From Alentia gelatinosa (lineage: Eukaryota > Annelida > Polychaeta > Phyllodocida > Polynoidae): 64,000 nt of DNA. Under the pieces are notes generated by a model, which made no database searches, was not told the origin of the DNA, and saw only the letters and a program-made list of their open reading frames with translations. Made by a program: the position numbers and the translations under genes. This document shows positions 3,137 through 64,000 of the stretch, piece by piece (positions within the stretch are counted from its first letter, which is position 1; every line of letters starts with the position of its first letter). The stretch covers positions 11,617,298 to 11,681,297 of the forward strand of contig OX465583.1 of assembly GCA_950022655.1 (NCBI GenBank). Direction: 5' to 3'.

Positions 3137-3284
3137 GGGAGAACTATGTTATTATACTTGTACGGAATGATTACCTCTTTCAGATCGGTCAAAATACCCA
3201 CCGACGTCGGAGACGGAGGTGGGTATTTTGACCGATCTGAAAGTCGGTAATCATTCCGTACAAGTATAATCACATTGTTCTCCT
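3137..3284. mobile_element. long hairpin (hairpin superfamily, copy 1)
   Basis: Near-perfect inverted repeat. The left arm runs from GGGAGAACTATGTTATTATAC through CAGATCGGTCAAAATACC and the right arm is its complement ending GTATAATCACATTGTTCTCC. Arms are about 65 bp and the apex carries GACGTCGGAGACGGAG. To the right lies ATTATTATATACC, the block-end motif seen beside hairpins at 28.4 and 45.7 kb. It can be either a fold-back element or a palindromic MITE. No target duplication is visible. Confidence 0.7.
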
Positions 3285-3570
3285 ATTATTATATACCTTA
3301 AATTGCCCGTAGATAGTCTAATTTTACCGTAATTGGCCGTTAATCACACTCCCTCTCTGTCAAGTTTACTCCGAAAGGCGCCCTGTACAAGAAATTATCA
3401 ACCGGATGTTTATTCCTAACCCATGGTGCATGCGCAGTTGGTCACACACTCTCCTTGCACATTCTTTACATACCCAGCATATTTTTAATAACGTGAAGAG
3501 TATGGGAATATGTGCCTGGAGAGTGAATGGTAGGTTATAAATCATAACAACTGGCCTACTATCAGGGAAA

Positions 3571-3642
3571 TCATTGGTGGTGTAGTGGTTAGGGCACTCG
3601 CTTCCAACTCGGGAGGTCTTGGGTACGAGTCCCGCTTACACA
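3571..3642 (+). ncRNA. tRNA-like Pol III unit (degenerate tRNA or SINE head)
   Basis: A perfect A box (TGGTGTAGTGG) is followed about 35 bp later by a near B box (GGTACGAGTCC), aligning end to end with the tRNA-Gly layout. The anticodon loop would read TTCCAAC (CCA). The D stem pairs, the T stem pairs at four of five positions and the acceptor stem does not pair, so it is unlikely to be a working tRNA. A T5 run at about 3646 could terminate Pol III. Confidence 0.45.
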
Positions 3643-3645
3643 ATT

Positions 3646-4232
3646 GTTTTTATGCTTTTCTTTTTAAATAAAAAAGGAAAAAACGCCAGTGTAGAGACAT
3701 TCATTACAGAATATAAAAACGAACTTAAAGTCTATTCTGAATTATTTTAGTTTTATGTGTAAACAATGTGTCCTTCGCTGTTTGTTTACATTTTTATGAT
3801 TTGTTTACATTTTGCAGGCTTGCTCCCACTGCCAGTAGTGTAGTAAAGGCTCCGACTCTTAGTGTCCATAGTGTCAGTTATAGTGTTTTTTCATGATGAT
3901 TTCTTTTGTATTTCGGAGTAATTCCATAATTCATGTTTGGATTCTGTATTTAAATGTCCTAGATGCCGTAGTTCACTATAACTGACCACTAAATATTTCC
4001 GTAATCGAATCGATGTCATCCGTCCGCCATTTTTAGATTTGCAGTCGTTCATCTTCTGACAAACTCTCATCCAATCAGATTGCGTTATTTTACGTTGAAA
4101 GCACTCCGTATGGCCTATCCAAAGGCGAGTCGTACAAGAAATTATGGAGTACCTCGCTCATACGACACATATACTACACCCCAAGCAGCAGTGCGTATTC
4201 GTATTGAGTTCATGCATAGGTATATAATAATA
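3646..4232. other. no gene recognised
   Basis: AT-rich, with no convincing coding or RNA feature; it runs into the 28-bp satellite at its right end. Confidence 0.4.
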
Positions 4233-5542
4233 CGTTATACTGGCCACCAGAGCTACACTATGTTACACTAGCCGCCAGAGCTACATCACATTACACTGGC
4301 CACCAGAGCTACACTATGTTATACTGGTCACCAGAGCTACACTACGTTACACTGGCCACCAGAGCTACACTACGTTACACTGGCCACCAGAGCTACACTT
4401 CATTACACTGGCCGCCAGAGCTACACTACTTACACTGGCCACCAGAGCTAAACGAGGTTACACTGGCCACCAGAGCTACACTTCATTACACTGGCTGCCA
4501 GAGCTACATTACATTATACTGGCCGCCAGAGCTACACTACGCTACACTGGCTGCCAGAGCTACACAACGTTACACTGGCTGCCAGAGCTACACTATGTTA
4601 CACTGGCTGCCAGAGCTACACCACGTTATACTGGCCACCAGAGCTACACTATGTTACACTGGCCACCAGATCTACGCTACGTTACACTGGCCACCAGAGC
4701 TATATTACGTTACACTGGCCACCAGAACTCAACTACGTTACACTGGCCGCTAGAGCTACACTAAATTACACTGGCCACCAGAGCTACACAACGTTACACT
4801 GCCCACCAGAGCTACACTACGTTACACTGGCCTCCAGAGCTACACTACGCTGCATTGGCCACCAGAGCTACACTACGTTACACTGGCCGCCATAACTATG
4901 CTATGTTACACTGGCCACCAGAGCTACATTACATTACACTGGCCACCAGAGCTACACTATGTTATACTGGTCACCAGAGCTACACTACGTTACACTGGCC
5001 ACCAGAGCTACACTATGTTACACTGGCCACCAGAGCTATACTTCATTACACTGGCCGCCAGAGCTACACTACGTTACACTGGCCACCAGAGCTAAACGAG
5101 GTTACACTGGCCACCAGAGCTACACTTCATTACACTGGCTGCCAGAGCTACATAACGTTATACTGGCCGCCAGAGCTACACTACGTTACACTGGCTGCAA
5201 GAGCTACACAACGTTACACTGGCTGCCAGAGCTACACTATGTTACACTGGCTGCCAGAGCTACACCACGTTATACTGGCCACCAGAGCTACACTATGTTA
5301 CACTGGCCACCAGATCTACACTATGTTACACTGGCCACCAGATCTACGCTACGTTATCAGAGCTATATTACGTTACACTGGCCACCAGAACTCAACTACG
5401 TTACACTGGCCGCCAGAGCTACACTAAATTACACTGGCCACCAGAGCTACACTAAGCTACACTGGCCACCAGAGCTAAACGAGGTTACACTGGCCGCTAG
5501 AGCTACATAAAGTTCCACTGGCCACAAAAGCTACACTACGTA
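4233..5542. repeat. 28-bp tandem satellite, about 47 copies
   Basis: The unit is GTTACACTGGCCACCAGAGC plus TACACTAC. Because 28 is not a multiple of three, all three forward frames stay largely open and give overlapping 28-residue periodic translations (HWPPELHYVTLATRA-like). These are artefacts and not proteins. Units vary mainly at CCACC/CCGCC/CTGCC, and a block of variants recurs in the same order at about 4.45-4.72 kb and 5.10-5.36 kb. That indicates duplication of a multi-unit segment as well as single-unit slippage. Confidence 0.95.
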
Positions 5543-6526
5543 AACTCTAGCGGAGTCAAATCAGAGGCCACCTTGAACCACCATGCTTTTACACTGGTTC
5601 CCTGCCCCTATGAGCCGAAACGTGCATATTCGTGGGACACTGAATTGAATGTGAAATTGAAGGTGAAGGTCACTCAGTGCACTTCCGATTTCCTGTTGAA
5701 GAATCCTGATGATTGGTTCCTATGGTGTTAGAATCCTGCTGATTGGCTCCCATGAATGCGCAGGTTTTCGTGGTGCTATAAATGATGGGACAGGTTAACC
5801 ACAATTACCTTGAACTTACCCTGGTTCCCCGGTCATTTAGAGTGGACGGGGGAACCAGCGATATTTTTGCAGGGCCCTATCCTGCGAGCGAACCCGCGTT
5901 GAAACCAGCGTAACAGGAAAACCAGCTCATTACTACGTCCCACAAAGCACTAGAAAAATAGTGGTAGTTACCTGGCCCAATATGTAAGGAGGACATAGGT
6001 CATGCTTCCAGGCTACTATGCTCTAAGTGTTTCCAATCTCTCAGCAGATCTTTCCTGTGACATACACCGATGTTTGGAGAATGTGCTATTTCCTATTCCT
6101 GAAGCCATTTTCCTATGAATTTATTTCATTTTATGTGTATTTTGAGTAAATTTACTACAGTGGACTTTATTGTTAATTCTGTGAGCTATGATTATATCTC
6201 CGCAAGTATTTCGGCTCTCAGAATACACATGGAAATAATTGCTTGGCCCAAGTATGAGAATTCATGGACTAGGCTTGGATTGAACCACACCAACCTCTCA
6301 GTCGAAAGAGAGTGGAAGTAGAGTTGGTGGCAAATTTATACAGAACCTTGATCAGGCTGCAAATAATACTACATGTCAGAACTACCTCATCAGTGCTCTC
6401 AGGTCGACAGTGCGTGCACCAACTCCCTCGTCTAGATATTAACTTTTCATAGTGCTGTGGAGGTTGCTTCCCAGTGCAGTTTTACTACCATGTCCGTATT
6501 CCGCTGTAAGACTAAGAAACTGATAA
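5543..6526. other. intergenic stretch without a clear gene
   Basis: No gene is supported. The left part has a promoter-like arrangement (listed separately at 5711-5783). The remainder is AT-rich with one short open frame (6115-6321) whose translation looks like chance. Confidence 0.35.
5711..5783 (+). promoter_or_regulatory. candidate TATA/CCAAT promoter
   Basis: Two inverted CCAAT boxes (GATTGG at 5711 and 5741, in a duplicated GAATCCTG context) precede a TATAAAT box at 5777-5783 by 30-60 bp, which is a classical Pol II core spacing. Transcription would start near 5807 on the plus strand. No open frame follows directly, so this could equally be a retroelement-derived or chance arrangement. 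Confidence 0.3.

Positions 6527-10755: not shown

Positions 10756-10806
<51 letters not shown>
10700..10806. repeat. TA microsatellite (left flank of Ngaro insertion)
   Basis: Almost pure TA with a few C interruptions. The retrotransposon joins it directly, and TA repeats resume immediately beyond its other end (15661-15672), so the element appears to have inserted into one TA tract. Confidence 0.95.
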
Positions 10807-10811
<5 letters not shown>

Positions 10812-10968
10812 GTGTACGTTCCAGAAGATAATAAGAATAGAAGATTAAGTATATGAATATATCATCAATGAATATTATAATATAATATATATATATAACA
10901 AGACTTTCTGTTTGGCTGAGAATATGATTAGGGGTCTTTATTACAATAATTTGTCATATTGTCACTCG
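10805..10968 (-). repeat. Ngaro split direct repeat B2 (3' end)
   Basis: A 164-bp copy identical by eye to 11206-11369 (offset 401). It forms the 3' terminus of the element and abuts the TA tract. Confidence 0.9.
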
Positions 10969-10988
10969 GCAAATAATAATAAATAATA

Positions 10989-11208
10989 AAAAAAATCTGA
11001 AGCGTGGTGGGTCGGCGGTGGCGGATCCCTGTAGAGTGAGGTCGATCCCTGGTCCTGCCCGTCCTTTTATGGTCTGGTATCTGATGCCCTCTGGTGTCAG
11101 GTTCCTGAGTTGTTGGTCCCTGGTCCATGAACGCCGTGGTCCCCTGGTGAGACTTTACTGTACTACTATTTTATATGTCCATAAAGACTAGTCTTTATGA
11201 TCCACATA
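10989..11208 (-). repeat. Ngaro split direct repeat A2
   Basis: A 220-bp copy identical by eye to A1 at 15443-15662. It is separated from B2 by about 20 bp of AAT repeats and directly joined to B1. In this type of element the A2-B1 region is thought to let a circular intermediate be rebuilt with complete ends. Confidence 0.9.
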
Positions 11209-11369
11209 AACCGTGTACGTTCCAGAAGATAATAAGAATAGAAGATTAAGTATATGAATATATCATCAATGAATATTATAATATAATATATATATATAAC
11301 AAGACTTTCTGTTTGGCTGAGAATATGATTAGGGGTCTTTATTACAATAATTTGTCATATTGTCACTCG
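11206..11369 (-). repeat. Ngaro split direct repeat B1
   Basis: The internal B copy, directly downstream of the recombinase stop codon (about 22 bp), overlapping A2 by the shared ATA. Confidence 0.9.
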
Positions 11370-11391
11370 CCAACCCCCTGCCAAACAGAAA

Positions 11392-12312
11392 TCAAGGGGA
11401 AAAAAGAGTATCAACAATCTGTTTATCCAACTGTATCTTGTTTTCTAATGTTCTTTGTAAGTAAGAAAGAACACTCCAACTTGACCAATCTCCAATTTCT
11501 TTTATATCACTAAGAGATACACCTGCCTGGTGCAGAGCAGATGCACCACCCCTGCGTAGTGAATGTGAAGTAGCCTTGTCAAGGCCGTTCAAAGTCAAAA
11601 GTTGAGAGAACTTTTTGGAAAACCAACTATAAGTACATTGTTGTAATTTCCCATTTTTAACAAAAGATATTAAATGATTTTCTGGTTTAAATGAAGCCAT
11701 ACGTAGTAATTCTGATATAAATTGAAATACACAAAAAGGAGAATCCTTTATCTTTGAGAATAGAATTGTCAATATTCGATCATTAAATTGAATTGTTTTC
11801 GACCTCGTAATTTTTAAATAAACATGTGTCTTCGTGAAGGTAATATCTTTTACCAAAATTGCAAAACCTTCTTCGAGAATATTCGTCTTTCTCAGTAGTC
11901 CACGAAAACCTAGAAGACATGATAACCAAAAAGCCATATCTTCCATTATAAACAAATTCAATGAGAAATATATCATTAATAATTCAATCTTTTGAATTGG
12001 TCTTGCTTGTTTTACAGTATAACCAATGGTTCTTTTAATTCCCATTAAAGTCGTTTTAATCTGGAAATGATCAACTGGAACGTGATCGAAACCATTTATT
12101 TTATGAAAAACCCATAGGGCAGAAAGATAATTTATGATACTATTATACTTGAAAGACTTCGCCATGTATGAAATATACATGCAAACGACATAAATGGTCG
12201 CAGGCAATGGGAGAAATTTAAATTCTTGACAAAAACGAAGGTAGTGTGTCCATTGGCATTTTCGTGTAATAGACGTATTCGTAGACATCCAACTCTGTTG
12301 GTATTGGTGCAT
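11392..12312 (-). CDS. Ngaro tyrosine recombinase (integrase)
   Basis: 306 residues. In DIRS-order elements this enzyme integrates a circular DNA copy by site-specific recombination instead of a DDE integrase. The N-terminal 110 residues resemble the helical core-binding domain. Catalytic residues can be placed: Arg141 in GFRGLLRKTN, His251 and Arg254 in SHSLRRGG, Trp276/279 in GDWSSW replacing the second His, and the nucleophile Tyr284 in VLSYLQ. The motif DIKEIGDWSSWSVLSYL is typical of the family. It starts 7 bp after the RT stop in another frame, so it needs re-initiation, splicing or its own message. Length is normal and the frame is unbroken. Confidence 0.9.
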   Translation of the reverse strand: MHQYQQSWMSTNTSITRKCQWTHYLRFCQEFKFLPLPATIYVVCMYISYMAKSFKYNSIINYLSALWVFHKINGFDHVPVDHFQIKTTLMGIKRTIGYTVKQARPIQKIELLMIYFSLNLFIMEDMAFWLSCLLGFRGLLRKTNILEEGFAILVKDITFTKTHVYLKITRSKTIQFNDRILTILFSKIKDSPFCVFQFISELLRMASFKPENHLISFVKNGKLQQCTYSWFSKKFSQLLTLNGLDKATSHSLRRGGASALHQAGVSLSDIKEIGDWSSWSVLSYLQRTLENKIQLDKQIVDTLFSP

Positions 12313-12319
12313 CTCGCCT

Positions 12320-14215
12320 TCAAGACCTATAACAACAAAATTGGTTAAACATGAATGGTGGAATAATAGCTTTATTCCTTACATCATAACGACGTGACAA
12401 AAAATCGGGTAGGATATTATCCTCCGATTTAATATAACTAGCTGTTATTTCAAAGTTAAACAAAACGCTAAGCCAGAAAAGTTCACGCAGCCAATTCATA
12501 ACTTGCAAATTTCTACTCCTTCCAGTATTAATAGCAGTAATAACTTGAGTATTATCTGAAATTAATTGAACATGATAATTTCCCCATAAGTGACCCCATT
12601 TTTGGACAGCTGCCATTACAGGCCAAAGCTCCAAAATATTTATATTTTTATCTATCGATTCCAAAGGGCAATGAAACCAATGGTGGGATTGAGTATGATC
12701 ATCTGGGACTCTGGGTAAAACGTCAGTCCATACACCAATTAGAAAATCATTAGCAAAGGTTGCACCAAAACCTGAAAAAGACGAATCTGTTTGTACTTTT
12801 ATCAAACCATGATGTTTAGGAATTAACAAATGTTTACTACCATTAAATATTGTTAAAAAACCTTTCCACCATTGCAAGTCCAGTCTTAACCAATCTGGAA
12901 TCTTGCAATGCCTCAGTCTGTCTTTCATAAAAGTGACGAAGTTGATCACCCTCCGAGAAAAAGTTCTGCCACCTTTTACTACTGTGCTAGCATGAGCTAA
13001 ATAGCCTGCTAACACAGCCATTTCATGATAAGACGCTGTGTCTTTAAACAGGTATAAATCAATTAAATCCTTCAATTTAATTAACTTTTCCATAGGTAAA
13101 CGTACCTGCATATCTACACTAGATAACTCAATTCCTAAAAATGTGATTTCTTGTGTAGGACTTACCACCTTGGGCCATGCTATACCGAATCCCAATGACC
13201 TCAGGAAATTGATCAAAATCCTGAGTTTTTCCTGACACTCTGCAAAAGTATTACCGATTATCAAGAAATCGTCCAGGTAACCAAAAACTCTATCCACCCC
13301 TCGACGTTCCATTGATCTCACAATGAACTCGGTCAATTGGGTAAAAATATAAGGAGCACATTTGAGGCCGAATACTAATCGGTTTGATTCAAAATACAAA
13401 GTTTCACCACCATCAGATTCCCATTGAAAGCCCTGAAAACGTCGATGATCAGGATTAACTGGGATACTTCGATATGCTTCTTGAATATCGAGAACTGCAA
13501 AATAACAACCTTCAGAAATATTATTCATAACTGTATCTATATGAAGATATTTAAATTTAGAACAAACCTCGTCCATAAAATTATTAATACTATCGTCTAT
13601 CGGCCTTTTACAATCGGTAATAGGTCGAAGCTTACCAGACGATTTTTTCACTGCTCCCAACGAGTGAATACATTGGGGGGGATCTGAAACAATAGTAATT
13701 TTTTCTTCAATTAATTCTTGAGCAATAGTATCGTTCATTTGACTACGGTATTCACTAGAATAAATACTATTATAATTATAAGAAAAATAAGAACCTTCGA
13801 AAGTTGAATCTACAATCGAAAAACCATCTCTGACACCTAGAAATATATATTCTGCATTAATATCAAAAGTTTTTGAATAACATTCATCATAAAAATGGCA
13901 AATATTCAGTTGGTTTCTTCTTCCTGCAATGAAATGATTATTATCACATTTCTCGCCACAAGGGCGAACGAAGGGTCTAGACGTATCTACCTCCGGATCA
14001 TTGTCCTCCACTGAATTCGTATTCTCTAGTGAAAAATTAACATGTGCCGTTGTTTCATCCGAACCACTCGTGCGGGCAGAAAAACCAATACTATCAGACA
14101 AATTAACTAATTTTTCATTTGAAGAAAATTCTATCTGATCCTGTACGGCAACAGGAACAACCTCTGCGCCGGAAACAAGCGGCAGTCCACGCGATGAAAA
14201 ATCATCGCCCACCAT
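12320..14215 (-). CDS. Ngaro reverse transcriptase-RNase H
   Basis: 631 residues from the first ATG. Residues 1-170 are acidic linker. RT spans about 175-390, with the first catalytic Asp243 in FAVLDIQEAYRSIPV, LVFGLKCAPYIF, and the YLDD box at 313-316. RNase H spans about 470-610, with Asp477 (VQTDSS), Glu529 (NILELWPV), Asp554 (LISDNTQV) and Asp604 (LPDFLSRR). No protease, DDE integrase or methyltransferase follows. The frame is open upstream for 34 codons to the gag amber stop, so gag and pol share one frame and the true N-terminus may come from readthrough rather than from this ATG. The protein makes DNA from the element RNA, with cDNA completed as a circle. Confidence 0.93.
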   Translation of the reverse strand: MVGDDFSSRGLPLVSGAEVVPVAVQDQIEFSSNEKLVNLSDSIGFSARTSGSDETTAHVNFSLENTNSVEDNDPEVDTSRPFVRPCGEKCDNNHFIAGRRNQLNICHFYDECYSKTFDINAEYIFLGVRDGFSIVDSTFEGSYFSYNYNSIYSSEYRSQMNDTIAQELIEEKITIVSDPPQCIHSLGAVKKSSGKLRPITDCKRPIDDSINNFMDEVCSKFKYLHIDTVMNNISEGCYFAVLDIQEAYRSIPVNPDHRRFQGFQWESDGGETLYFESNRLVFGLKCAPYIFTQLTEFIVRSMERRGVDRVFGYLDDFLIIGNTFAECQEKLRILINFLRSLGFGIAWPKVVSPTQEITFLGIELSSVDMQVRLPMEKLIKLKDLIDLYLFKDTASYHEMAVLAGYLAHASTVVKGGRTFSRRVINFVTFMKDRLRHCKIPDWLRLDLQWWKGFLTIFNGSKHLLIPKHHGLIKVQTDSSFSGFGATFANDFLIGVWTDVLPRVPDDHTQSHHWFHCPLESIDKNINILELWPVMAAVQKWGHLWGNYHVQLISDNTQVITAINTGRSRNLQVMNWLRELFWLSVLFNFEITASYIKSEDNILPDFLSRRYDVRNKAIIPPFMFNQFCCYRS

Positions 14216-14317
14216 CGAATTAGAGTCGATACAGGCCGTGCTAATGTTATTTCCGTATACATCGAGATAATTATATTTCCCCTTATTTGCAAATCGTTCA
14301 GGGGAAAAAACCTTATC

Positions 14318-15403
14318 CTATTTAGGATCTATTTTCTCGTTAGACTTATCCTTTGAGCCCTTTTTGCACGACTGGACCGGATGACCCTGGCCACAATAAG
14401 AACAATCATGTCGATAAAGACAGTTAGGGAAAACACAACCCTTGGAGGTATTGAATTTCCAGCACACCCCCTCGCTCTTACCCTCTTGACGCCTATTGGT
14501 TGATTTCTTTTCAACCTTATCTTGGAATTCTTTTAACTTTTTCGAAAGATTAACGAAAGCAAAAGTTGTCTCATAATTAAGGAACTTTTCTGTTAAAAAG
14601 GAGTCACCATAACCGAAACCTTCCATGCCCAAACTGTCCGCTTTTTCACGCATTGCTAAATCATACTCCACGAGGGATTTGCCCGTGTGGGTAGGTTTGC
14701 GGTCAATTAGATACGAGATATGATCTGCTAAACCTTCTGTATTCAAACCTTGTGAAGACAAAGTTCTCAATAACCCCATGTTTGCACTGAGTATCTGGTC
14801 AAAAGTTGGATTATCGCAACTAGGAGGTAGAAAAGGAGTAAGTGAAAAGAACTTGGACTTACGTTTTACCTTCTCTGAACAGGCATGTGTGCCGGTGCAA
14901 TTTGATGCATTTCCCTGCACGTGCGGTGGAAGAAAAATTTTTGCATTAGGATAAACAGGTCTTAAACTAGGGTTGGTTTGTAACCCCCGAGGCAATGAGG
15001 CCTGACCGGCAATTTCATGGTTGAATGCGCTGGGCATTGCACTATCGCTACCACGTGGCACCCTTTCAGACTGGCCGGCACCTTCCTCGGAACTGTTTCT
15101 CAACTCAAAGTCTCGAAAACTGGAACATAATACCTGTATATCAGACCTAATAGAGGAGACCTCCTTCTTTAGTTTGTTATGTTCTAACAAAAGGTTACTC
15201 ACCCAAGGGGGCTTTTGCCACGGGGATCCGCCACCGCCCTCTGCCCTGTCTCCAACCGCTCCCAATTCCTCCTCTGTACTCTGTGTAGAAGTCCTCTGTA
15301 ACTCCTTAAATTTACAGGTGGGACAGCCTTCTCTATGTGACCGACCATCGTAGTCCAAGCCACAAGTGTCACACTTGCGCATGGTAACCAAAAGGTATAC
15401 CAA
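14318..15403 (-). CDS. Ngaro Gag-like protein with zinc knuckles
   Basis: 361 residues, but the second Met (15382) places the first zinc motif at the N-terminus and is a likely alternative start. Cys11-x2-Cys14 and Cys27-x2-Cys30 form a zinc-ribbon-like pair. A Pro/Gly linker is followed by a coiled-coil-like stretch (about 70-100) and a helical central region. Near the C-terminus a CCCH finger (C-x8-C-x4-C-x3-H from residue 314) adjoins a CCHC knuckle (CSYCGQGHPVQSC), which should bind element RNA. It ends with an amber UAG that lies in the same frame as the RT frame downstream. About 40-60 bp separate its start from repeat A1. Confidence 0.85.
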   Translation of the reverse strand: MVYLLVTMRKCDTCGLDYDGRSHREGCPTCKFKELQRTSTQSTEEELGAVGDRAEGGGGSPWQKPPWVSNLLLEHNKLKKEVSSIRSDIQVLCSSFRDFELRNSSEEGAGQSERVPRGSDSAMPSAFNHEIAGQASLPRGLQTNPSLRPVYPNAKIFLPPHVQGNASNCTGTHACSEKVKRKSKFFSLTPFLPPSCDNPTFDQILSANMGLLRTLSSQGLNTEGLADHISYLIDRKPTHTGKSLVEYDLAMREKADSLGMEGFGYGDSFLTEKFLNYETTFAFVNLSKKLKEFQDKVEKKSTNRRQEGKSEGVCWKFNTSKGCVFPNCLYRHDCSYCGQGHPVQSCKKGSKDKSNEKIDPK

Positions 15404-15442
15404 AAACGGACAAAAGTCAATGAAAAGTCGACCAAAGTCGAG

Positions 15443-15662
15443 AAAAAAATCTGAAGCGTGGTGGGTCGGCGGTGGCGGATCCCTGTAGAGTGAGGTCGAT
15501 CCCTGGTCCTGCCCGTCCTTTTATGGTCTGGTATCTGATGCCCTCTGGTGTCAGGTTCCTGAGTTGTTGGTCCCTGGTCCATGAACGCCGTGGTCCCCTG
15601 GTGAGACTTTACTGTACTACTATTTTATATGTCCATAAAGACTAGTCTTTATGATCCACATA
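15443..15662 (-). repeat. Ngaro split direct repeat A1 (5' end)
   Basis: 220-bp terminal copy, identical by eye to A2 (10989-11208). It should contain the promoter of the element because it is the only non-coding sequence upstream of gag. TA repeats follow directly outside it. Confidence 0.9.
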
Positions 15663-16029: not shown

Positions 16030-17515
16030 TGGGCCGTGAAATATAGCTAGAGATCTCTCAAGGCAGTGTTTCTGTTCTTTACAACTGTTGATATGATGGA
16101 TAAAGAGAACAAGTAAAGCGCACAATGAAATATAGCTAGAGATCACCATTCTGCCCTTTATGGTTGTTTATATGACAGATATAGAGAAGACGTAGAGTGC
16201 ACTATGAAATATAGCTAGAGACCTCGCAAGCCAGTGTTTCTGTTCTTTACGGCTGTTGATATGATGGATTAAGGGAACAAGTAAAGTGCACAATGAAATA
16301 TAGCTAGAGATCACCATTCTGCCCTTTATGGTTGTTTATATGACAGATATAGAGAAGATGTAGAGCGCACTATGAAATGTAGCTAGAGACCTCGCAAGCC
16401 AGTGTTTCTCTTCTTTACGGCTGTTGATATGATGGATAAAGGGAAGACGTAGAGCGCACTATGAAATATAGCTAGAGATCAGTATTTCTGCCTTTTATGG
16501 TTGTTTATATGATGGATAAAGGGAAGACGTAGAGCACACTATGAAATATAGCTAGAGATCAGTATTTCTGCCCTTTACGGTAGTTTATATGATGGATAAA
16601 GAGAAGATGTAAAGCTCATACGAAGGGAAACAACAGATAAAAAAGAAGAAAAGATTCGAACAGGGAACTCTACATTTGACAGTTGTTAATATGATGGATA
16701 AAGATAACACATAAAGCACACAATGAAATATAGCTAGAGATCTCCCAAGGCAGTATTTCTGTTCTTTACGGCTGTTGATATACTGGATTAAGGGAACAAG
16801 TAAAGTGCACAATGAAATATAGCTAGAGATCACCATTCTGCCCTTTATGGTTGTTTATATGACATATATAGAGAAGATGTAGAGCGCACTATGAAATGTA
16901 GCTAGAGACCTCGCAAGCCAGTGTTTCAGTTCTTTACGGCTGTTGATATGATGGATAAAGGGAAGACGTAGAGCGCACTATGAAATATAGCTAGAGATCA
17001 GTATTTCTGCCCTTTACGGTAGTTTATATGATGGATAAAGAGAAGATGTAAAGCGCATACAAAGGGAAACAACAGATAAAAAAAGAAGAAAAGATTCCAA
17101 CAGGGAACTCTACATTTGACAGTTGTTAATATGATGGATAAAGATAACACATAAAGCACACAATGAAATATAGCTAGAGATCTCCCAAGCCAGTTTTTCT
17201 GTTCTTTGAGGCTGTTGATATGAGAGATAAAGAGAACAAGTAAAGCACACTATGAAACATTGCTAGAGATGGGTATTTCCGTACTTTATCCTAACCCTAA
17301 TAAAAAATGCATAGGCTTAAAATTGGCTATCTGTATTTGAGTGAGCATGCAGTAAAGATGATAGATAAAGATGACACGTAAAGCGCACTATGAAATATAG
17401 CTAGAGATCTCAAAAGGCAGTACTTCTATTCTTTACAGATGTTGATATGAGAGATAAAGAGAAGATGTGAAGCGCATAGGAAGGAATCAACAAATAAGAA
17501 AAAAGTAAAACAAAA
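16030..17515. repeat. 80-90-bp tandem array, left part
   Basis: Each unit holds TGAAATATAGCTAGAGATC, TTCTGYYCTTTA and GATATGATGGATAAAG, with spacing alternating between about 80 and 89 bp (unit starts 16037, 16125, 16205, 16294). A remnant of a hairpin-superfamily block (TTTATCCTAACCCTAATA, ATAGGCTTAAAATTGG) is embedded at 17288-17345, as it is again at 18.8 kb. Confidence 0.9.
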
Positions 17516-18654: not shown

Positions 18655-19700
18655 ACAGTTGTAGATATGATGGATAAAGATAATATGTGAAGCGCACTAT
18701 AAGATACAGCTAGAGATCTCACAAGTTAGTATTTATGTCATTTACTGCTGTTGATATGATGGATTAAGAGAAGAATATAGCTTGAGATCAGTATTTCTAT
18801 CCTTTATCCTACCCCTAATAAAAAACGCCATAGGCTTAACTTTGGCTGACTGTATTTCGGTGAACAGGCAGTAAAGTGTTATTTATAGCACGAGGGTAGC
18901 AAATGGAGACTGGGGATAGGATAAATACTAAACTTTAGTCGAGTTAGCAGAGTTAGTGGGTATCACACTCCAGTCAGGTCTGCTTCTCATGATGCTCGGC
19001 TAACACCTCGCACAGTAATTTGCGACCTGCCCATCATGCAATACACACTAACACTACTCACTCACATTCAGTTTCTACTAATTATGGCTGTTGATATGAT
19101 AGATAAAGAGAAGACGTAACTTTAAAATAAAGCTAGTATTTCTGCCCTATGCGTCTTGCGATATGAGAGATAAAGAGAAGATGTAAAGAGCATACGAAGG
19201 GAGTCAACAGATGAGAAAAAAGTAAAACAAATTCCAATGGGGAGCTGTACACTTGACAATTGAAATATAGCTCAAGTTCTTGCAAGTAAATATTTCAGTC
19301 CTTTATGGTTGTTGATATGAGAGATAAAGAGAAGACGTAAAGCGCACTATGAAATATTGCTAGAGATCAGCATTTCTGTCCTTAACGGTTGTTGATATGA
19401 CAGATAAAGAGGAGATGTATGTAGCGCATACGAAGGAAATCAACAGATAAGAAAAATGTGAGGCAAAATTCCAACGGGGAACTGTACATTTGACAGTTGT
19501 TGCTATGATGGATAAAGATAACACTTAAAGCGCACTATGAAATATAGCTAGAGATCTCGCAAGCCTGTATTTCTGTTCTTTATGGTTTACGGTTTCTTGA
19601 TATGAGAGATGAAGAGAAGATGTTAAGCGCATGCGAAGGGAATCAACAGATAAAAAAAAAGTAAAATATTCCAACGAGAAACTGTACATTTTCACTGAAC
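18655..19700. repeat. 80-90-bp tandem array, right part
   Basis: Continuation of the same array after the CACTGTA element, more degraded, and interrupted by a hairpin-superfamily element at 18803-19078. Confidence 0.85.
18803..19078. mobile_element. hairpin-superfamily element (copy 2)
   Basis: The block begins TTTATCCTACCCCTAATA with CCATAGGCTTAAC and closes at ATAGGATAAA (18921). The hairpin 18925-19078 follows. Outer arms (TAAACTTTAGTC.. against ..GTTTCTACTA) are imperfect and the inner arms (GTTAGTGGGTAT/ATACACACTAAC) are better. In reverse the apex reads GCGAGGTGTTAGCCGAGC, matching the 31.5 and 63.8 kb hairpins although the arms differ. Confidence 0.7.
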
Positions 19701-24588: not shown

Positions 24589-24635
24589 ACAAAAAGACTT
24601 GTAATATTTTTATCCTTTTGATGAAATACATGTTC

Positions 24636-39619: not shown

Positions 39620-39639
39620 TTACTTGATATTTTTTCAGC

Positions 39640-41520: not shown

Positions 41521-41553
41521 TGGCAAAGGAACCGAAATGCTACCACTCCACAA

Positions 41554-42080: not shown

Positions 42081-42279
42081 TACAATCAGTATAAGCGTGC
42101 CTTGTGCACCGAAGTGTCGAGTAATGTCAGAGGGAGCTGGGTTGATGATCTGAGCTCAGCCACTGTGAGGTTTCGGAAAAACAACAACCAACATGAGGCC
42201 CCAAGGGTTCAGCCTTATCAGGACTGATACTCTACTTCCACTATAGAAGAGTGAACATGCAACCATTCCACTGTCCCGA
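42081..42279 (-). repeat. 199-bp direct repeat, copy 2
   Basis: Identical by eye to 41554-41752 and separated from it by 328 bp. It breaks off at TCCCGA, where a 10-bp minisatellite begins. Identity implies a recent duplication. Confidence 0.85.
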
Positions 42280-49330: not shown

Positions 49331-49460
49331 AACAAGTTTAGATTCTTGTTTGGCTCAAAACGAAGTTCCTCAAGGTATAAATGTACATGAGTTCTGATGT
49401 ACTCTTTGTTCATCCACCATATCATGTTTGAGACATTCTGTATCCAACTCAATCACTCTA

Positions 49461-49727
49461 GGGCTCGTTTCCATTGGCTGACGAAAATGGTGTGGATTTT
49501 TTTAGATCTCCTTAAAGCCCATTTTCATTGGCCATCACCGATCTACAGTCAGGGACAGACCATTAGCATTTTTTTAGTTATCCTAAAAGCCCTTTTCCAT
49601 TGGCCATCGCCAATATACAGTCAGGAACCACCGACAGACCTTCAGCATTGGTTAAGCAAAATGGAAATGGCCTTTTAGGAGAACTAAAAAATCTACACCA
49701 TTTTCGTTGGTCAAAGGAAACGGGCCT
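49461..49727. mobile_element. MITE family a with internal TIR duplications
   Basis: Left GGGCTCGTTTCCATTGGCTG; right GGTCAAAGGAAACGGGCC. Inside, the TIR-like word recurs twice in the same orientation (CCCATTTTCATTGGCCATCA, CCCTTTTCCATTGGCCATCG), each followed by a CAATATACAGTCAGG-like or CGATCTACAGTC word. The ends therefore look like stacked insertions or duplications of the end. Confidence 0.78.
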
Positions 49728-49739
49728 TATCACTGACAA

Positions 49740-52200: not shown

Positions 52201-52717
52201 AAGAAAAACACAAAATACTCCCAAAAGCGCTCAGAATTTAGGATATTTGAAAAACTGGTGGATGGGATAGATTTTGTCCCAAACAGGCAGGTCGGAGCAG
52301 AAATACAATTGGCCCCGGGAAGTGTTGCAGGATCTGTGCTCGGAGAGTGCACGATAGGCAGGCTATATGGCATGTCAATGGTGCCCAGGTGTTGCTGGGT
52401 TATATCCCCCGCTGGTGTACTGATACCAGAGACTGTTGACACAGACACTAAGGGTAGGAGTTCCTGTGTGATGAGGGAGTCTTCTTTTTGTCAGCTGCAT
52501 GGGGTGGGTCACACCCACAGGTCAGGGAGATTTGTATTTTCCTGCAGATATTCGTGGTGCATGTATACATGTATGTCCTGCACGTGGGAATATCGGTTGA
52601 CTCAATTCTCACTATACGATTCACACTTTGGAATACGCCCTGGAACCGTAACACGCCATCATCATTCGCGTGATGATATACAGAGACATGGTTAGTGTGG
52701 CTGAATGAAATCTGTTC

Positions 52718-52930
52718 CGAGTTGTTTTGGTCGGAAATATTCATTGAGTTCGAAGGACGAGGTGAATATTTCCAACGAAACTAACAAGTAGTCCTGTAGC
52801 AGGTTAGAGGAAGTGTGTTTCAGAGTACATACAATGTTTTATTATTGAATCTAGAGCTCCTTAATCTCCCGATTCCGAATCTGCTTCGTGCCAGTTTGTA
52901 CAGGCTCAGCATTTTGAGATATGAGCGTTT
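52718..52930. mobile_element. hairpin (copy 14) plus tail, inverted relative to 55070-55250
   Basis: Hairpin 52718-52789 (GGTCGGAAATATTCA pairs with TGAATATTTCCAACG; apex TTGAGTTCGAAGGACGAGG). The tail (CAGAGTACATACAATGTTTT, AGCTCC, ATCTGCTTCGTGCCAG, CAGCATTTTGAG) matches 55070-55170 in reverse. GACATGGTTAGTGTGGC before the hairpin matches the 45.9 kb arms. Confidence 0.7.
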
Positions 52931-53249
52931 TAAATAAAAAACATTAAAAAAATGGAAAATAATCAAATGAATATATTTATTTAAACTCAATTTCAGAGTA
53001 AATCACATTTTATGAATTATTCTCAAAAGGAATCTGATATTTGATTAACACAATTACATATGGAAAGATTGATGGTATATTTGACCTTGAAAAGTCAGGT
53101 GAAGGTCAAATCAAGGTCAATTTTGTCATTTAATGTAAAACTATGAAATTTATTAGATGAAATGCAATAGGTGTGCAAAACAGAATATTTCTACATCACT
53201 CCTTAAAATTTACGCTGGGTTCTAATGTACTATCTATGTATTGGCAACT

Positions 53250-53312
53250 GACTTCAGTCCTTCTCTTCATCTGATTCATCATCACTGTCTGAATAGAAAA
53301 TATGTTTTGTCC
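53250..53312 (-). pseudogene. possible terminal exon with acidic tail
   Basis: After an in-frame stop and an AG at about 53318, the minus strand reads NPWTKHIFYSDSDDESDEEKD and a stop. Acidic Ser/Asp/Glu tails like this are common protein C-termini. It lies downstream of the 53548-53904 frame on the same strand, so both may belong to one decayed gene. Confidence 0.3.
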
Positions 53313-53547
53313 ATGGGTTTCTACATTAGATATGACCTGCACCAAGTTGTTGTTGTTCCTTGCCAATTTCATTGCCTAGGAAACCATGTTAACATCAGCC
53401 TCCTCATGTGTAGTTCAGAGGTCATCTCTGTTGGTAATGAGTCCTCCATATACAATAAAACCTGCTTCTGAGGCACTTCACTAAAGGGGGTACCCTGTTT
53501 TGGGGGTCCTTTGCTCGGAACAGACAGTATCACATTAAAGAAAGGTT

Positions 53548-53904
53548 TTACTCTACTTCTATTGGGATGGGTTCTGGTCCTGTTACTAGCAATGTATTCT
53601 GTACTGCCGTACCCTCTGCTTCTCTCACAACATATTCAGTGATGATTTGGATTAACTGCACTGTATTACTTGTTACAAACGGGGTGTCCTTCTGTGAAGG
53701 AAGCAGAGTCTGCAGGAATATTTGATGTTGGTGTGCAACAATGACACTAGCTCTTTCTACCCTTGTAGGGTCCTTGATACTATATTCATGATACCGATCT
53801 AACACCAGGTACACATCATGTTGAAGGAGAATAACTGCAGCATGATGCCTCCAGGTATTCCCCAGTCTAGGTATCTTAGAGGCATCATTGATACATATAT
53901 ACAA
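53548..53904 (-). pseudogene. fragment of an uncharacterised protein with a DRY..SIKDPTR signature
   Basis: 118 codons. HDVYLVLDRYHEYSIKDPTR resembles a signature (hydrophobics, F/L-D-R/G-Y, S-x-K, T-R-x-x-R) that I associate with a large uncharacterised protein family recurring in invertebrate genomes, often as many copies; this is recollection and not a search. The remainder (TLLPSQKDTPFVTSNTVQLI, ending PEPIPIEVE) is plausible coding. No complete gene: the N-terminal part is absent, and the frame is probably a single exon or a relic. Confidence 0.4.
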
Positions 53905-54217
53905 ATTTCAATAATTGAAAAAATATTTGCTTGAATTAATAGAAATTTTGACAAAGTATGAGAGCCATATTGACCTTTGATTTGGTATAACAAAATATCA
54001 TCAGCTACCAAGGTAAATTACTCAAATTATATGATACATCATGTGACATTACTATTTCCCCCAAAAAGGTGCCTGCCATAGCAGGGCTATTTATGCAGGC
54101 TTTGCCTGCCATGTAATGCTGAGCAATGGAACTTGGTGCTGCAGGGAAAGTGTTATTCCTATATACCTATGAGCGAATAACCTATGATTACCTGATGCTG
54201 CTGGGGGTGAAATCACT

Positions 54218-54300
54218 TTTGTTTACTGCCCAGATTGACGTTTACTGCCAAGGTTGAAGTTTTCTGCCTGGTTGAATGTTTCCTGCCCAGGTTGACGTTC
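54218..54300. repeat. short tandem repeat, about 20 bp, 4 copies
   Basis: Imperfect units of GCCCAGGTTGACGTTTACT. It lies just before the 54353 hairpin. Confidence 0.75.
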
Positions 54301-54352
54301 AGAGACGTTCGGTTTTTATAGATATTAGCCAACAATTGAAAGTATAAAGGAA

Positions 54353-54531
54353 TAGGGAAACCACGTACCGGTGGGAATAAGTCAAAGTTACAAGGTAAGA
54401 CTTGGAAAAATTATTCCCCAAGCATAGCCTTGGACAGTAATTTTTCCAAGCATAGCCTTGGACAGTAATTTTTCCAAGCTTTGCCTCGTTACTTTGACTT
54501 ATTCCCACCGGAACATAGTTTCCTTATAATA
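54353..54531. mobile_element. long hairpin (copy 15) with an internal 34-bp duplication
   Basis: GGTGGGAATAAGTCAAAGTT and GACTTGGAAAAATTATT pair with AATTTTTCCAAGC and AACTTTGACTTATTCCCACC-like right arm. The loop side holds two tandem copies of AAGCATAGCCTTGGACAGTA plus ATTTTTCC. The right arm in reverse has GTAACGAGGCAAAGC. Block not identified. Confidence 0.7.
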
Positions 54532-54539
54532 TAAGGTTA

Positions 54540-55015
54540 TGAAATAATTAAAATAAGACCATAGTGAATGAATTTGTTCTTAGATATCATCATTACTCAG
54601 TTCTAATAAGCTTAGACTGACAAAACAAGCTAAATAAGCTTAGAATGACTAAACAATCATAGATTTGACAGAGTGTAATCACACAATCCACATTTAAGCA
54701 ATATTCATAATTGATTAATTTAAGATAATGAAATAATTAAATAAGACCATAGTGAATTAATTTATTGTTAGATATTATCATTACTCAGTTCTGTGCTTAA
54801 TAGGCTTAGAATGACTAACTAATGAAAGATTTGACAGTGTATTCACACAGTAAAATGTGCATGGGAACAATGATCATAATTGATTAATCTAAGTTTATTA
54901 AATAATTAGAATGGCACCATATTGAATTAACTTTTTCTTAGATATCATTATTAACCATTCTGTGCTTGATAAGCACAGAATGACTAAATAATCATAGATT
55001 TGACAGAGTGTACAA
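54540..55015. repeat. tandem repeat of about 170-190 bp, 2.6 copies
   Basis: Units open with AATAATTAAAATAAGACC/AATAATTAGAATGGCACC at about 54543, 54733 and 54900, and contain TCTTAGATATCATCATTA, AAGCTTAGAATGACTAA and GATTTGACAG. Confidence 0.8.
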
Positions 55016-55069
55016 TTATTTTTCTTATTTTTCTTAGAATTAAATTATTTTTTATTTTCAAATAGTAAT

Positions 55070-55440
55070 AACTCAAAATGCTGAACCCATACAATCTGGC
55101 ACGAAGCAGATTTGAAATCAGAAGATTCAGGAGCTTCAGAATCAATCATAAAACATTGTATGTACTCCAAAACACACCTGACCTTTCAGACTGGCCCTGA
55201 CTGCAGGACTAAAGGAACAGATGTAATTCAATCACAATCACTATGTCTCCTTATTGTTATATACCTGGAAATAATTAAAAATATCCTTTCAAAACTCACT
55301 AATTAGCAGAATGACAGTGGTCACGTGGTACAGAGGGACGTATGAATATTCTCTCGTCGCTCAGTGATGAACGGAATCTCTACTTCTGGTCAGTAAAAGT
55401 GAGACATTCGCCCATGGGTATAAATATTGATACAGGCTAC
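55070..55440. mobile_element. inverted partner of 52680-52930 plus hairpin-type block
   Basis: 55070-55250 matches the 52.8-52.9 kb tail in reverse. 55225-55440 matches the 45.7 kb block in reverse (TATTGTTATATACCTGG, CCACGTGGTACAGAGGGACG, AAAAGTGAGACATTCG). The two inverted copies bracket 53-55 kb. Confidence 0.65.
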
Positions 55441-55676
55441 ATTATCACCATTGGGGGTTGAAAAGGATAGAGGAGGTGATTTTGCCACGTGTGCATCTTA
55501 AAACAATTTAGCTTCTCTCTCTCTTTTTTTTTTTTATAGAATTTTCAATGGAGGAGCCATTCAATTTTCCCATGAGAATACTGCGGTGTAGTTATTAATA
55601 AGCGGTTGTGGAGCGGTATTCTGTTTTCGTCCCACAATGTCATAAGGTTAGCTGTATGGGTGTAGGTTAACAGTTA

Positions 55677-55872
55677 AGGCCAGTTTCCATTGGCCGACGA
55701 AAATAGTATAGATTTTTTGTGTTCTCCTAATGGCCTATTTCCATTGTCCATCACTAAAATACAGTCAGGAACCACTGACGGACCTTCAGCTATGATAACG
55801 CAAAGTCTAAATAGACTATTAGGAGAACACAGAAAATCTACACCGTTTTTGCCAGTCAATGGAAAAGGGCCT
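55677..55872. mobile_element. MITE family a with TTA target duplication
   Basis: 196 bp between TTA (55674-55676) and TTA (55873-55875). TIR AGGCCAGTTTCCATTGGCCG, right CAATGGAAAAGGGCCT. The cleanest complete copy of the family in this window. Confidence 0.9.
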
Positions 55873-55879
55873 TTAGCTA

Positions 55880-58343: not shown

Positions 58344-58570
58344 TTACCATGACAAATCGCTTCAGACCGAGGTACCTCATTGCCCCAAAGGTGCTTGATA
58401 TTTTTGGACCCTATAGTTTATAAGCAGGATTAGGACTGGCTGTTTGGTTGGGTTACAGCAAGTGATCTATCGACTGCATAAAACACAATCCCTTTAATTG
58501 GAACCTATAGTGTATAGGCAGGTTAAGGATTTGCTGGGTGCCAAGTGGGTTACTATAGAGGAAACCCATC

Positions 58571-58819
58571 GAGTTTGAACTGCATAGTATTTCACAAGGC
58601 GAAGCAGCGTGAATTACATGGCGATTCAAACAAGATTGGATCAAGCTCTGACCCTAAACCTGAATAGGTTTCTGAATTTATCTCATCCTTCACAATGACT
58701 AATGGGCTAACATTTGCGACATAATCCCCCATTGGATATTTTTCCTAAATATCTCACAGGCGTTGGATACTAGTTCTCAATGTTAAGTCTATAGAGAATA
58801 AAACCCAGGGTGAGATAAA
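58571..58819. mobile_element. hairpin-superfamily element (copy 16), reversed
   Basis: Hairpin 58571-58648 (GAGTTTGAACTGCATAGTAT.. against ..GATCAAGCTC) with apex AAGGCGAAGCAGCG. The block from TTTATCTCATCC to GGGTGAGATAAA (58678-58819) has GGCGTTGGATACTAGTTCTC. Sister of 32871. Confidence 0.8.
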
Positions 58820-59204
58820 GCAAATGATATAGTTACTGCATAAAATCCAAACCCTTTAAATGGATACTATAGTGTATCTCATATATCAATGACAAACATA
58901 CCATTGTCTTTCCTAATCAACTCAACTGGTATTACTCCTCTGAAGTCAATTCTGATCGCACTGGTTGCATGAATAAACCCATACTTTTCAATTAGTAAAT
59001 AAACCCTCATACATCAATGATGAATGATCTTCTGATCGCAGAAGTTTGTTAACCATCATAATAGGGCTGGGGATGCATGAATTATGCAAATAATTAATAA
59101 CCTATTCAAGTTGTAAATGGAATTCAAATGAGAATTTTCTTTTATTAGGCACCAATAAATGTTACAATGTCATCTATTTTAGAACAGGTTTTTAAGACAT
59201 CCGT

Positions 59205-60435: not shown

Positions 60436-60662
60436 CGTACATCAGCGGGCATGTATAATTCAAATGGTATGGACAAATATTTTCATGTGAATCTGTGCTC
60501 TCTGAACGAAGAGCGTATAATTGGGAATCCCGGAGCTGGGGCTGAGGTATGTACGTCACTGGGGGTTGAGTCAACTTCCTGTGTCCTGCATCTCCGCTGC
60601 GGAAATCGGGAACCTCTCCGTTTTATCAGGACTATACCAATGTTATAGGCCAGGAAGGCATA

Positions 60663-60931
60663 TTATCCTACCCCTAATAAAAAACGCCATAGGCTTAACA
60701 TGGGATTAGTTTATGTCACGGGTGTGACATAAAGTGTTGTTTATGCCACTACTTTCTGATACTGAAAAAAGTATAGGAACAAGGTAGGATAAAATCTAGA
60801 CGCCACTCGTTTGAGTTTGAGTTTATTTAGGCTGCTCATTTTGTTGGCTCCGTAATGTCACTCGTCTTCGACTCGTGAGATTATGGAGCCAACAAAATGC
60901 GTGGCATAAATAAACTCAGACTCAAACTCGT
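60663..60931. mobile_element. hairpin-superfamily element (copy 17)
   Basis: Block TTATCCTACCCCTAATAAAA with CCATAGGCTTAACATGGG to GGTAGGATAAAA (60663-60794). Hairpin 60805-60931 (CGTTTGAGTTTGAGTTTATT, ATTTTGTTGGCTCC and complements). Apex in reverse CACGAGTCGAAGACGAGTG. Block word TTTATGCCAC recurs as GTGGCATAAA in the arm. Confidence 0.85.
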
Positions 60932-61065
60932 AACGTCTCTTCATATTAGGGATTCTGGTGGGATCCTCCTTCAAATAGTGTTTCCCTAATACCAATACTA
61001 CATCAAGCTGAACAAAACAGGAATGACCCCCCGTTGTTGTTTTCATTTACATTTTTTCCTTTTTT

Positions 61066-62783: not shown

Positions 62784-62802
62784 ACATGATGTCAGAGGGT
62801 TA

Positions 62803-63237
62803 GGGGGTGCGTCCACCAACCACGACAGGGCTGCGACACGCGCCGACAAGAAAGTTCCAATCGCAGCCTTGTCGCAGCCTTGTCGTGAGAAGGGGGGCTG
62901 TCGTGACCCCTTGTCGCAGCCTGTCGGGAAGTGCACGCTCCACCTAAATATTCTATCGTAGACCTCTGCGACAACCTCCCGACACGCCACGACACGCCAC
63001 GACACGGCACCAAAATCGAACATGTTCGATTTTGTCGTAGCCTTGTCGGAAGGCCTCCGGCAGGCCCCCGACAAGGTTCATGTTGCAGCCTGTCGTGGCC
63101 TTGTCGTAGCCTCTTGTCGGGAACTGTGGTCCACCAACCACGACAAGGCTACGACAAGGCTTCCTATCGTAGAGCTGTCGTGGACCTTGTCGGAAAGCCG
63201 CTGTCGCAGCCTTGTCGGGGTTGGTGGACGCACCCCC
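62803..63237. mobile_element. MITE family c with TTA target duplication
   Basis: GGGGGTGCGTCCACCAACCA to TGGTTGGTGGACGCACCCCC-like right end (here GGGTTGGTGGACGCACCCCC), flanked by TTA at 62800-62802 and 63238-63240. Close to the 21602 copy in reverse. The empty site at 62057-62062 (AGAGGGTTAATCG) confirms the limits. Confidence 0.92.
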
Positions 63238-63345
63238 TTAATCGGGGCAACTCTACGTGATTTTCCCTTTTCTATTACACGATTTATTTTGACCAGGATG
63301 TAGAGCTGGATATATTTACTTCCTGGTTTGGTTCGATAGCATCCT
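63238..63345 (+). repeat. duplicated segment, copy 2 (right part)
   Basis: TTAATCGGGGCAACTCTACG to TTACTTCCTGGTTTGGTTCG matches 62057-62166. Confidence 0.8.
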
Positions 63346-63579
63346 CTTGTGTGCCGTGTACTTTGCTGTCAGCGGTATGGTGCTGACTACATGATAGGTC
63401 ACTGCTGTTCTGTGGCTGCAGCAGTACAGGGAATTCACCACTCTCCCAGCAGAGATCTTGCGCTCTACTTCCTGTGGCCGCTTATATCTCTGCCCCAACC
63501 TACCTGTTTGGGCTCAAATCTGGCCCATACGCCAGTTGTTGTTTTTTTTTAATCCTAAATTCATAGAGCTTTGGGGATT

Positions 63580-63745
63580 ATTTAGTGGTTTACTTGTAAA
63601 TAGAGATGTACATATTTATATCGTAATGATATACACTCATTTCTGTTATTTGTCATATGAAATTAGGCATAGTCCTAGGGATTACTTTCTTCAGTGGAAG
63701 GCACCTCATGTGTTCTTGGGTTGTGTTTTGTCAACATGACACAAG
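63580..63745 (+). repeat. dispersed repeat copy (paralogue of 51960-52200)
   Basis: TGTAAATAGAGATGTACATA, ATACACTCATTTCTGTTATT and TACTTTCTTCAGTGGAAGGC align with the reverse of 52.0-52.2 kb. Confidence 0.65.
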
Positions 63746-63760
63746 GAGAGGAGACTTAGT

Positions 63761-64000
63761 AGAAACTGAACGAGAGTTAGACTTGTCAGTGTTTATGCCA
63801 CGACGGGAAGGTCGTGTATTACTACGCGAAGCGTTAGCTGAGCGTAGTGAGGAACAGACCTGACCAGAGTGGCATAGACACTGACAAGTCTAACTCGAGT
63901 TCGGTTTCGTATTTATCCTAACCCGTCTCTACGCTTTTGGATTACTAAAATATAAATATTGATTAAATGACCAACCAGAACTTTTGAGTCCAACCGGAAC
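63761..64000. mobile_element. hairpin-superfamily element (copy 18), cut by window end
   Basis: Hairpin 63761-63909: outer arms AGAAACTGAACGAGAGTTAG..GTTTATGCCAC and complement. Inner TATTACTACGCGAAGCGTTA then GCTGAGCGTAGTGAGG. The block starts TTTATCCTAACCC at about 63912 and runs off the window. Closest to 31491 in both arms and core. Confidence 0.8.

Follow-up and report, generated by a model that had tools for sequence, protein, structure and literature searches.

In Helitron2 elements, a short repeat is terminal at the 5' end while its second copy is internal, immediately upstream of a hairpin (PMC3627910). HINE elements are non-coding and carry subterminal inverted repeats of 11–15 nt, the 3' copy of which lies before a 3' palindrome, and they leave the target unmodified (PMC4067079, PMC7492417). 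In Helraiser, the 3' hairpin is reported to be a termination signal: approximately 90% of the activity remained when the stem was swapped and the loop kept, and a change of the loop, together with one pair at the loop base, had the effect of a deletion of the hairpin (PMC4778049). Here we describe a set of elements found in 64,000 nt of the genome of Alentia gelatinosa (assembly GCA_950022655.1, contig OX465583.1, positions 11,617,298–11,681,297 of the forward strand; this whole stretch is referred to as the window, and coordinates are given within it). Each element consists of a 12–15 nt 5' repeat, a body, an inverted copy of the repeat, 0–5 nt, and a long 3' hairpin, after which it ends. We propose that they are probably small non-autonomous transposons built like Helitron2 and Helentron (HINE) elements, and moved by a rolling-circle transposase of the HUH type that is encoded elsewhere.

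One unit with a long hairpin at its 3' end

The preliminary description of this DNA counted at least 18 long hairpins, starting at positions 3137, 18925, 24783, 28511, 30176, 31491, 32871, 34838, 35861, 39235, 39492, 39773, 45866, 52718, 54353, 58571, 60805 and 63761. Their excess is confirmed: the window contains 16 palindromes with a score of at least 60, against none in 20 dinucleotide shuffles, and 24 with a score of at least 40, against 0.4 per 64 kb in the shuffles. The 16 strongest comprise ten of the listed hairpins, four other repeats and two AT runs. The palindrome table (score of at least 44) holds 11 of the 18; the hairpins at 30176 and 39492 are absent from it but clear in other repeat and fold analyses, the table omitting the palindrome 30168–30311 that is visible in the repeat comparison. 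Five hairpins (18925, 24783, 32871, 52718 and 58571) are imperfect and older. The fold z-scores are −3.2 for 18925, −1.7 for 24783, −3.8 for 32871 and −2.6 for 58571; that at 24783 is weak when taken alone, with 12 of 200 shuffles folding equally well. The one at 52718 is interrupted by an insertion, and its other part is found at 55213–55425. When the two parts are joined, their alignment with the element that starts at 45678 runs from end to end, which shows that a 2.4-kb transposon sits in the hairpin arm. The inserted DNA (52784–55212) has inverted ends of about 130 bp that match at 83%, with TAGTCCTG outermost. The hairpin at 54353 is real, and we considered it as a family member; it was rejected, since it has no apex motif and its flanking repeat matches at 11 of 13 positions, a level reached by 13% of random positions.

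Many of the hairpins had also been said to lie beside blocks with inverted ends. The inverted repeats do adjoin the hairpins, but the two are parts of one element and not neighbours. The 5' repeats read TTTATCCTACCCC, TTTATCTCACCCC, TTATTATATACC or diverged relatives of these, and the body spans 96–921 nt. In the 14 elements that have both repeats, the copies agree at 10–13 of 12–15 positions, the hairpin lies 0–5 nt beyond the 3' copy, and it is always on the expected side; the element table was mostly built outward from the hairpins (E15 was found from its repeats), so that this is no independent test of the side. The hairpin measures 130–150 nt in 13 of the 16 tabulated elements, with edges set by reading.

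A separate test compared the 13 nt beside each listed hairpin with the DNA within 1 kb. An inverted copy matching at 12 positions or more was found for 10 of the 18 hairpins (one side of 63761 falls at the window edge and was untestable), while 2.6% of 3,000 random positions pass. In all ten the repeat lies on the side predicted from the strand of the apex, and never on the other side. The match at 30176 differs from the repeat that we assigned, and the assigned repeats at 28511 and 39492 (11/13) and at 39773 (10/13) are in the range of chance.

Three inferred pre-insertion sites, whose end points were placed by eye, show what was inserted. Element E12 (3138–4230, minus strand; TTATTATATACC repeats at 4219–4230 and 3286–3297, hairpin at 3138–3285) lies in a 28-bp satellite, and E3 (18803–19081, plus strand; TTTATCCTACCCC repeats, a decayed hairpin, and CCATAGGCTTAACTT close to its 5' end) in an 80/168-bp satellite. 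The third, E15 (36157–36608, minus strand), is a TTATTATATACC element with a 74-nt hairpin (fold z −2.8). It splits E35 (35847–36699, minus strand), and its site was read against the paralogue of E35, E30 (29915–30311, plus strand; TTATTATCCACC repeat with a 3' copy of 10/12, and a hairpin), in which a few bases are different at the insertion point. At each inferred empty site the whole unit, including the hairpin, is absent and the target is intact. The long hairpin is thus part of the inserted unit at two sites (E12 and E3), E15 carrying a short one. In the case of E12, setting the 3' end 4 nt past the hairpin base makes the joined flanks restore the 28-bp satellite unit. On the basis of these inferred sites, we reject the idea that block and hairpin are independent neighbours. 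No clear target site duplication is seen at the three sites, where an ambiguous junction homology of 2–5 nt hides the exact ends of the elements. The target sequences, from these three sites only, are TTTATGG for E3, ATAA/TTATGG for E15 and CGTA/GTAT for E12.

The other TTTATCCTACCCC elements are E1 (31486–31855, minus strand; perfect 13/13 repeats and a 147-nt hairpin), E5 (34699–34983, plus strand; with hairpin) and E6 (39356–39627, plus strand; with hairpin). E6 is the second of three elements arranged head to tail at 39213–39912; it is preceded by E7 (39213–39352, plus strand), a 3' part with a weak repeat, TTTATCATCCACC, and a hairpin, and followed by E8 (39629–39912, plus strand), with diverged repeats (11/15) and a hairpin. 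E9 (24752–25120, minus strand) and E10 (32846–33128, minus strand) are TTTATCTCACCCC elements with hairpins, that of E10 having a variant apex. E13 (28368–28661, plus strand) is a TTATTATATACC element with a strong hairpin. Further elements are E14 (45678–46016, plus strand) with TTACTATATACC and a near-perfect hairpin, E11 (58561–58819, minus strand) with TTTATCTCACCC and a hairpin that is shortened in its 3' arm and has a variant apex, and E4 (60662–60945, plus strand) with ATTATCCTACCCC and a 141-nt hairpin. The interrupted hairpin mentioned above corresponds to E52 (52676–52783, minus strand), which comprises the apex and the 3' arm of an element resembling E14, and to E55 (55213–55425, minus strand), the 5' part of the same element beyond the 2.4-kb insertion. 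Last comes the TTTATCCTAACCC element E2 (63756–63924, minus strand), of which the 3' part, including a 147-nt hairpin, falls inside the window and the 5' part outside.

The sequence CCATAGGCTTAACAT, with at most three changes, starts 24–26 nt from the 5' end in eight of the nine complete elements formed by the TTTATCCTACCCC and TTTATCTCACCCC groups and E8; the exception is E10. Two 5' fragments without a hairpin, 17285–17357 (TTTATCC) and 26237–26251 (TTTATCTC), are apparently truncated copies. The 5' end is doubled in E9 (24962–25120, with copies at 25108–25120 and 25028–25040) and seemingly in E15 (36157–36608, by eye). Doubled 5' ends have been reported in composite Helitron2 elements (PMC5148889). 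In two TTTATCTC elements, a copy of the DNA that directly precedes the 5' end follows the 3' end, with 79–81% identity (24622–24747 and 25112–25240 for E9, 58446–58515 and 58808–58877 for E11); these flanks may reflect a large duplication, an old tandem target or a read-through copy. The body of E12 contains a tRNA-like stretch (3574–3640) with motifs that resemble an A-box and a B-box by eye; the tRNA finder makes no call there, nor anywhere else in the window.

Apex and arms of the hairpin

On the canonical strand the apex has the form C-TC-(2–4 bp stem)-T(N)NC-(stem)-TC-G, in which the stem with its cap sits on a TC/TC internal loop and an outer stem encloses the whole. In E1, for example, it is CTC-GGC-TAAC-GCC-TCG in a short outer stem (31548–31581, minus strand). 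The motif first reported for the apices, AT(T/C)AC-n-CGARG-n-AGCYGAG-n-RTATT, is the complement of this sequence. Judged by eye on an alignment, 11 of the 18 listed hairpins retain the TC/TC pair, four have it in altered form (39492, 39773, 32871 and 58571) and three lack it (28511, 39235 and 54353); among the kept apices, that of 52718 has A for the last G, and those of 30176 and 35861 have a stem of 2 bp. In total, 15 of the 18 hairpins have the motif, four of them in its altered form; the hairpins at 28511 and 39235 share the layout only, and that at 54353 shares neither.

The conservation of the apex is supported by a covariance model trained on the seven apices of the TTTATC groups and run on the whole window with filters off. 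Five of the eight held-out apices (60852, 35909, 30224, 58586 and 45920) were recovered at ranks 8–12 on the expected strand, the E-values at these ranks being 0.00037, 0.008, 0.011, 0.19 and 0.84, and the first match outside any hairpin comes at rank 13. Three of these five belong to elements with other repeats. It is important to note that the apex segment and its structure were chosen after all apices had been viewed, so that the held-out test is independent in letters only.

The pairing of the 15 apices points in the same direction: 80.0% of the cells are paired, against 58.8 ± 2.8% after shuffling, and there are 27 double changes against 9.7, neither value being reached in any of 500 shuffles. 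Two further pair measures are weaker (73 and 20 of 500 shuffles). The seven training apices alone show a modest pairing excess (40/500 and 11/500), and none for pair types. Compared with random palindromes of equal composition, a check proposed at the outset, the apex is significant in 11 of the 18 hairpins (six of the 11 that were not used for training and five of the seven that were), with a pattern that was widened after E12 and E14 had been seen; it is not significant for 28511, 32871, 39235, 54353, 58571, 39492 and 39773. We also considered that the outer stem of the apex might hold a nick site like the TAATATTAC of geminiviruses. Some apices resemble it, but the sequence is in a stem and variable, and this candidate was rejected.

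Outside the apex, the sequence similarity between arms of different families is close to chance, in line with the unrelated arm sequences noticed earlier, and the arms are nearly fixed in length. Over 98 between-family pairs, with family labels that are our own, identity is 47.5% in the apex against 27.9% after shuffling, while the arms, at the best of nine offsets, reach 38.6% against 36.7% (left) and 39.3% against 36.8% (right). There is some kinship between the arms of E8 and E9, and of E4 and E5. The distance from the repeat to the centre of the apex is 75.5 ± 2.6 nt (n = 13), with 12 values at 74.5–78.5 and one, that of E6, at 68; it does not depend on where the hairpin edges are set, and it leaves aside E35 and E52, for which no repeat was assigned at the base, and E7, E13 and E15, which have no apex. 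In three comparisons, changes in one arm are matched in the other more often than expected: E1 and E2 (P = 0.0004), E1 and E3 (P = 0.018), and E14 and the rejoined E52/E55 (six double changes against 2.6, P = 0.009).

Weighing the Helitron2-like reading

The preliminary description did not recognise a named class in these elements. Their arrangement does have close named relatives, the Helitron2, Helentron and HINE elements, which share the asymmetric (subterminal) repeat and the 3' hairpin, and whose published layout fits what we see here (PMC3627910, PMC4067079, PMC7492417, PMC5148889). Like Helitron2, the elements have a terminal 5' repeat and a 3' copy directly before the hairpin; like HINE and DINE-1 elements, they are non-coding, with subterminal repeats, a 3' copy upstream of the hairpin and no target modification.

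The differences concern both ends. The 3' repeat is about 20–30 bp from the end in Helitron2, and about 150 nt here. The published 3' palindromes of HINEs are of 5–10 bp (in mites) or are called short, whereas the hairpins described here mostly measure 130–150 nt and have a structured apex. The 5' hairpin of Helitron2 includes the 5' repeat, and HINEs have an extra inverted repeat beside it; neither has a consistent counterpart here, and the T-T target is not clear. When 18 5' ends were folded, a copy located 49–53 nt past the repeat paired with 7–8 nt of it in E1 and E11, and 4 nt were paired in E5. Since the 5' hairpin is not consistent and the enzyme is not seen, we describe the elements as working like those of Helitron2 and HINE, without counting them among these groups.

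Helitron1 elements such as Helraiser are alike in that a 3' hairpin is the stop signal, that the loop matters and that the stem is exchangeable; they differ by a 19-bp palindrome, the lack of inverted repeats, TC...CTAG ends and an AT target. A conserved tip with changing arms would be the natural counterpart of the loop and stem experiment made on Helraiser. Other systems offer partial parallels. The ends of IS200/IS605 and the attC sites of integrons are single-strand DNA hairpins read by structure, with unpaired recognition bases, but they are bacterial and short. In fold-back elements and snap-back miniature inverted-repeat transposable elements (MITEs), the long inverted arms are the ends of the transposon, whereas here the hairpin is at one end only, outside the inverted repeats.

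A common mobilising activity, as suggested in the preliminary description, is likely, and we propose that it operates as follows. On the single strand that is displaced, pairing of the two repeats and stacking of the hairpin beside them would bring the 5' and 3' ends together in a three-way junction. As its stop signal, the transposase would recognise the apex, with its short stem, its T(N)NC loop and its TC/TC internal loop, at about 75 nt from the repeat; it would then cut just past the base of the hairpin and join the strand to the target, without long target duplication. The single-strand DNA folds of the two whole elements examined, E4 (z −12.7) and E1 (z −8.1), have the two repeats paired and the hairpin directly beside them, which suggests that both ends meet. 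We propose that the arms need only to pair and to have the right length, so that families can replace them. It may be that the hairpin is a two-part ruler, the structured tip of which is read about 75 nt, or about seven helical turns, from the repeat, whatever the sequence of the arms, and that the elements perhaps form a separate superfamily; this part of the proposal is tentative. In the literature available to us, which excludes most subscription journals and Repbase, we found no eukaryotic transposon whose end is recognised by a tip and a distance, and no description of long Helitron hairpins or of conserved loops. As judged from sequence, the new features would be the long hairpin, the structured tip and the fixed length.

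Several observations weigh against this reading. A motif scan of the six frames of the window found no HUH motif, no Walker A and no helicase motif, so that the transposase would have to be supplied in trans; five matches to a tyrosine motif in the same scan are apparently incidental. A complement of the 5' repeat within 80 nt exceeds shuffles (P < 0.05) in only two of the 18 5' ends, E11 and E13 (P = 0.06 for E1), and the T-T target preference is not seen at E12. The hairpins of E13, E15 and E7 lack the apex motif; the covariance model ranks the apex of E10 only 18th, and at E ≤ 10 it reports neither that of E12 nor that of E52. About nine arm families, some of which may be related, account for the 13 distances, and part of the fixed length could therefore be inherited. 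Last, the matched arm changes are uneven, with P = 0.22 for E5 and E6 and none in E30/E35 or E10/E11.

Some of these observations would be accounted for if the elements belonged to another lineage of single-strand transposons, apart from Helitrons (Replitron-like, of an unnamed HUH type, or moved by a recombinase that reads hairpins), and had acquired the same end logic by convergence. The inconsistent 5' hairpin, a 3' hairpin far longer than the published ones and the lack of a Rep-helicase signature in the window argue for it; about Replitrons, we found nothing further in the literature. On the contrary, an asymmetric repeat with a 3' hairpin and no target duplication is the layout of Helitron2 and Helentron, and we consider a separate lineage rather unlikely.

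A slightly less probable explanation is that the arms are kept palindromic not by selection but by copying while the single strand is replicated, either through fold-back synthesis or through conversion of one arm by the other. Double Watson–Crick changes exceed shuffles in three of six hairpin pairs, two of these three sharing E1, and the arms differ between families; but the hairpins of E3, E9, E10 and E11 have decayed without repair, and copying alone does not explain a nearly fixed arm length. Such a process may coexist with the Helitron2-like mechanism that we favor.

It is improbable that the blocks are cut-and-paste MITEs, dependent on a DDE transposase, that landed beside pre-existing palindromes. 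Their inverted repeats of 12–15 nt are clear, and some DDE elements do prefer palindromic targets. However, the hairpin is one-sided, 0–5 nt away, and has its apex on the matching strand; the inferred empty sites of E12 and E3 lack the hairpin too, and show no clear target duplication. MITEs of this type have repeats at both extremes and a target duplication of fixed length, whereas here the hairpin is placed beyond one of the repeats and, in E12 and E3, inside the inserted unit, and no duplication of fixed length is seen.

Most improbable of all is that the hairpin acts as RNA, as a small-RNA precursor or a terminator, and not as DNA: long hairpins of 130–150 nt could yield small RNAs if transcribed, but no Rfam family matches the window at the gathering threshold and the position of the hairpin is fixed relative to the transposon repeat.

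Other repeats of the window and meaning of the finding

The DNA of the window is eukaryote-like and rich in repeats, with several satellites and 27 open frames of at least 100 amino acids. Exact pattern scans of viral_contigs and genome_contigs gave no match in either. A tyrosine-recombinase retrotransposon, apparently recent, occupies 10805–15662 on the minus strand, with reverse transcriptase and recombinase frames. It has split direct repeats, 10805–10972 matching 11206–11373 (99.4%) and 10989–11208 matching 15443–15662 (100%), an arrangement which we take to resemble that of Ngaro/DIRS elements. A distinct family of palindromic repeats, with a sequence like AAGGCC-GTTTCCATTGGC, is present at 37315–37459, 49459–49730 and 55675–55873, and E1 (31486) adjoins the apparent end of such a repeat. 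An identical 200-bp direct repeat is found at 41553–41752 and 42080–42279, with starts 527 bp apart.

How Helitron-like transposases find the 3' end is, in our judgement, poorly understood, and the short 3' hairpins known so far reveal little about it. The elements of A. gelatinosa look like a natural stem-swap experiment, seemingly repeated several times in one genome, in which the tip stays, the arms change and the length stays. They provide a model of recognition that can be tested, and a search signature (the covariance model of the apex, together with a repeat about 75 nt away) for hidden rolling-circle elements. Such elements are also a source of long palindromes, which may destabilise genomes.

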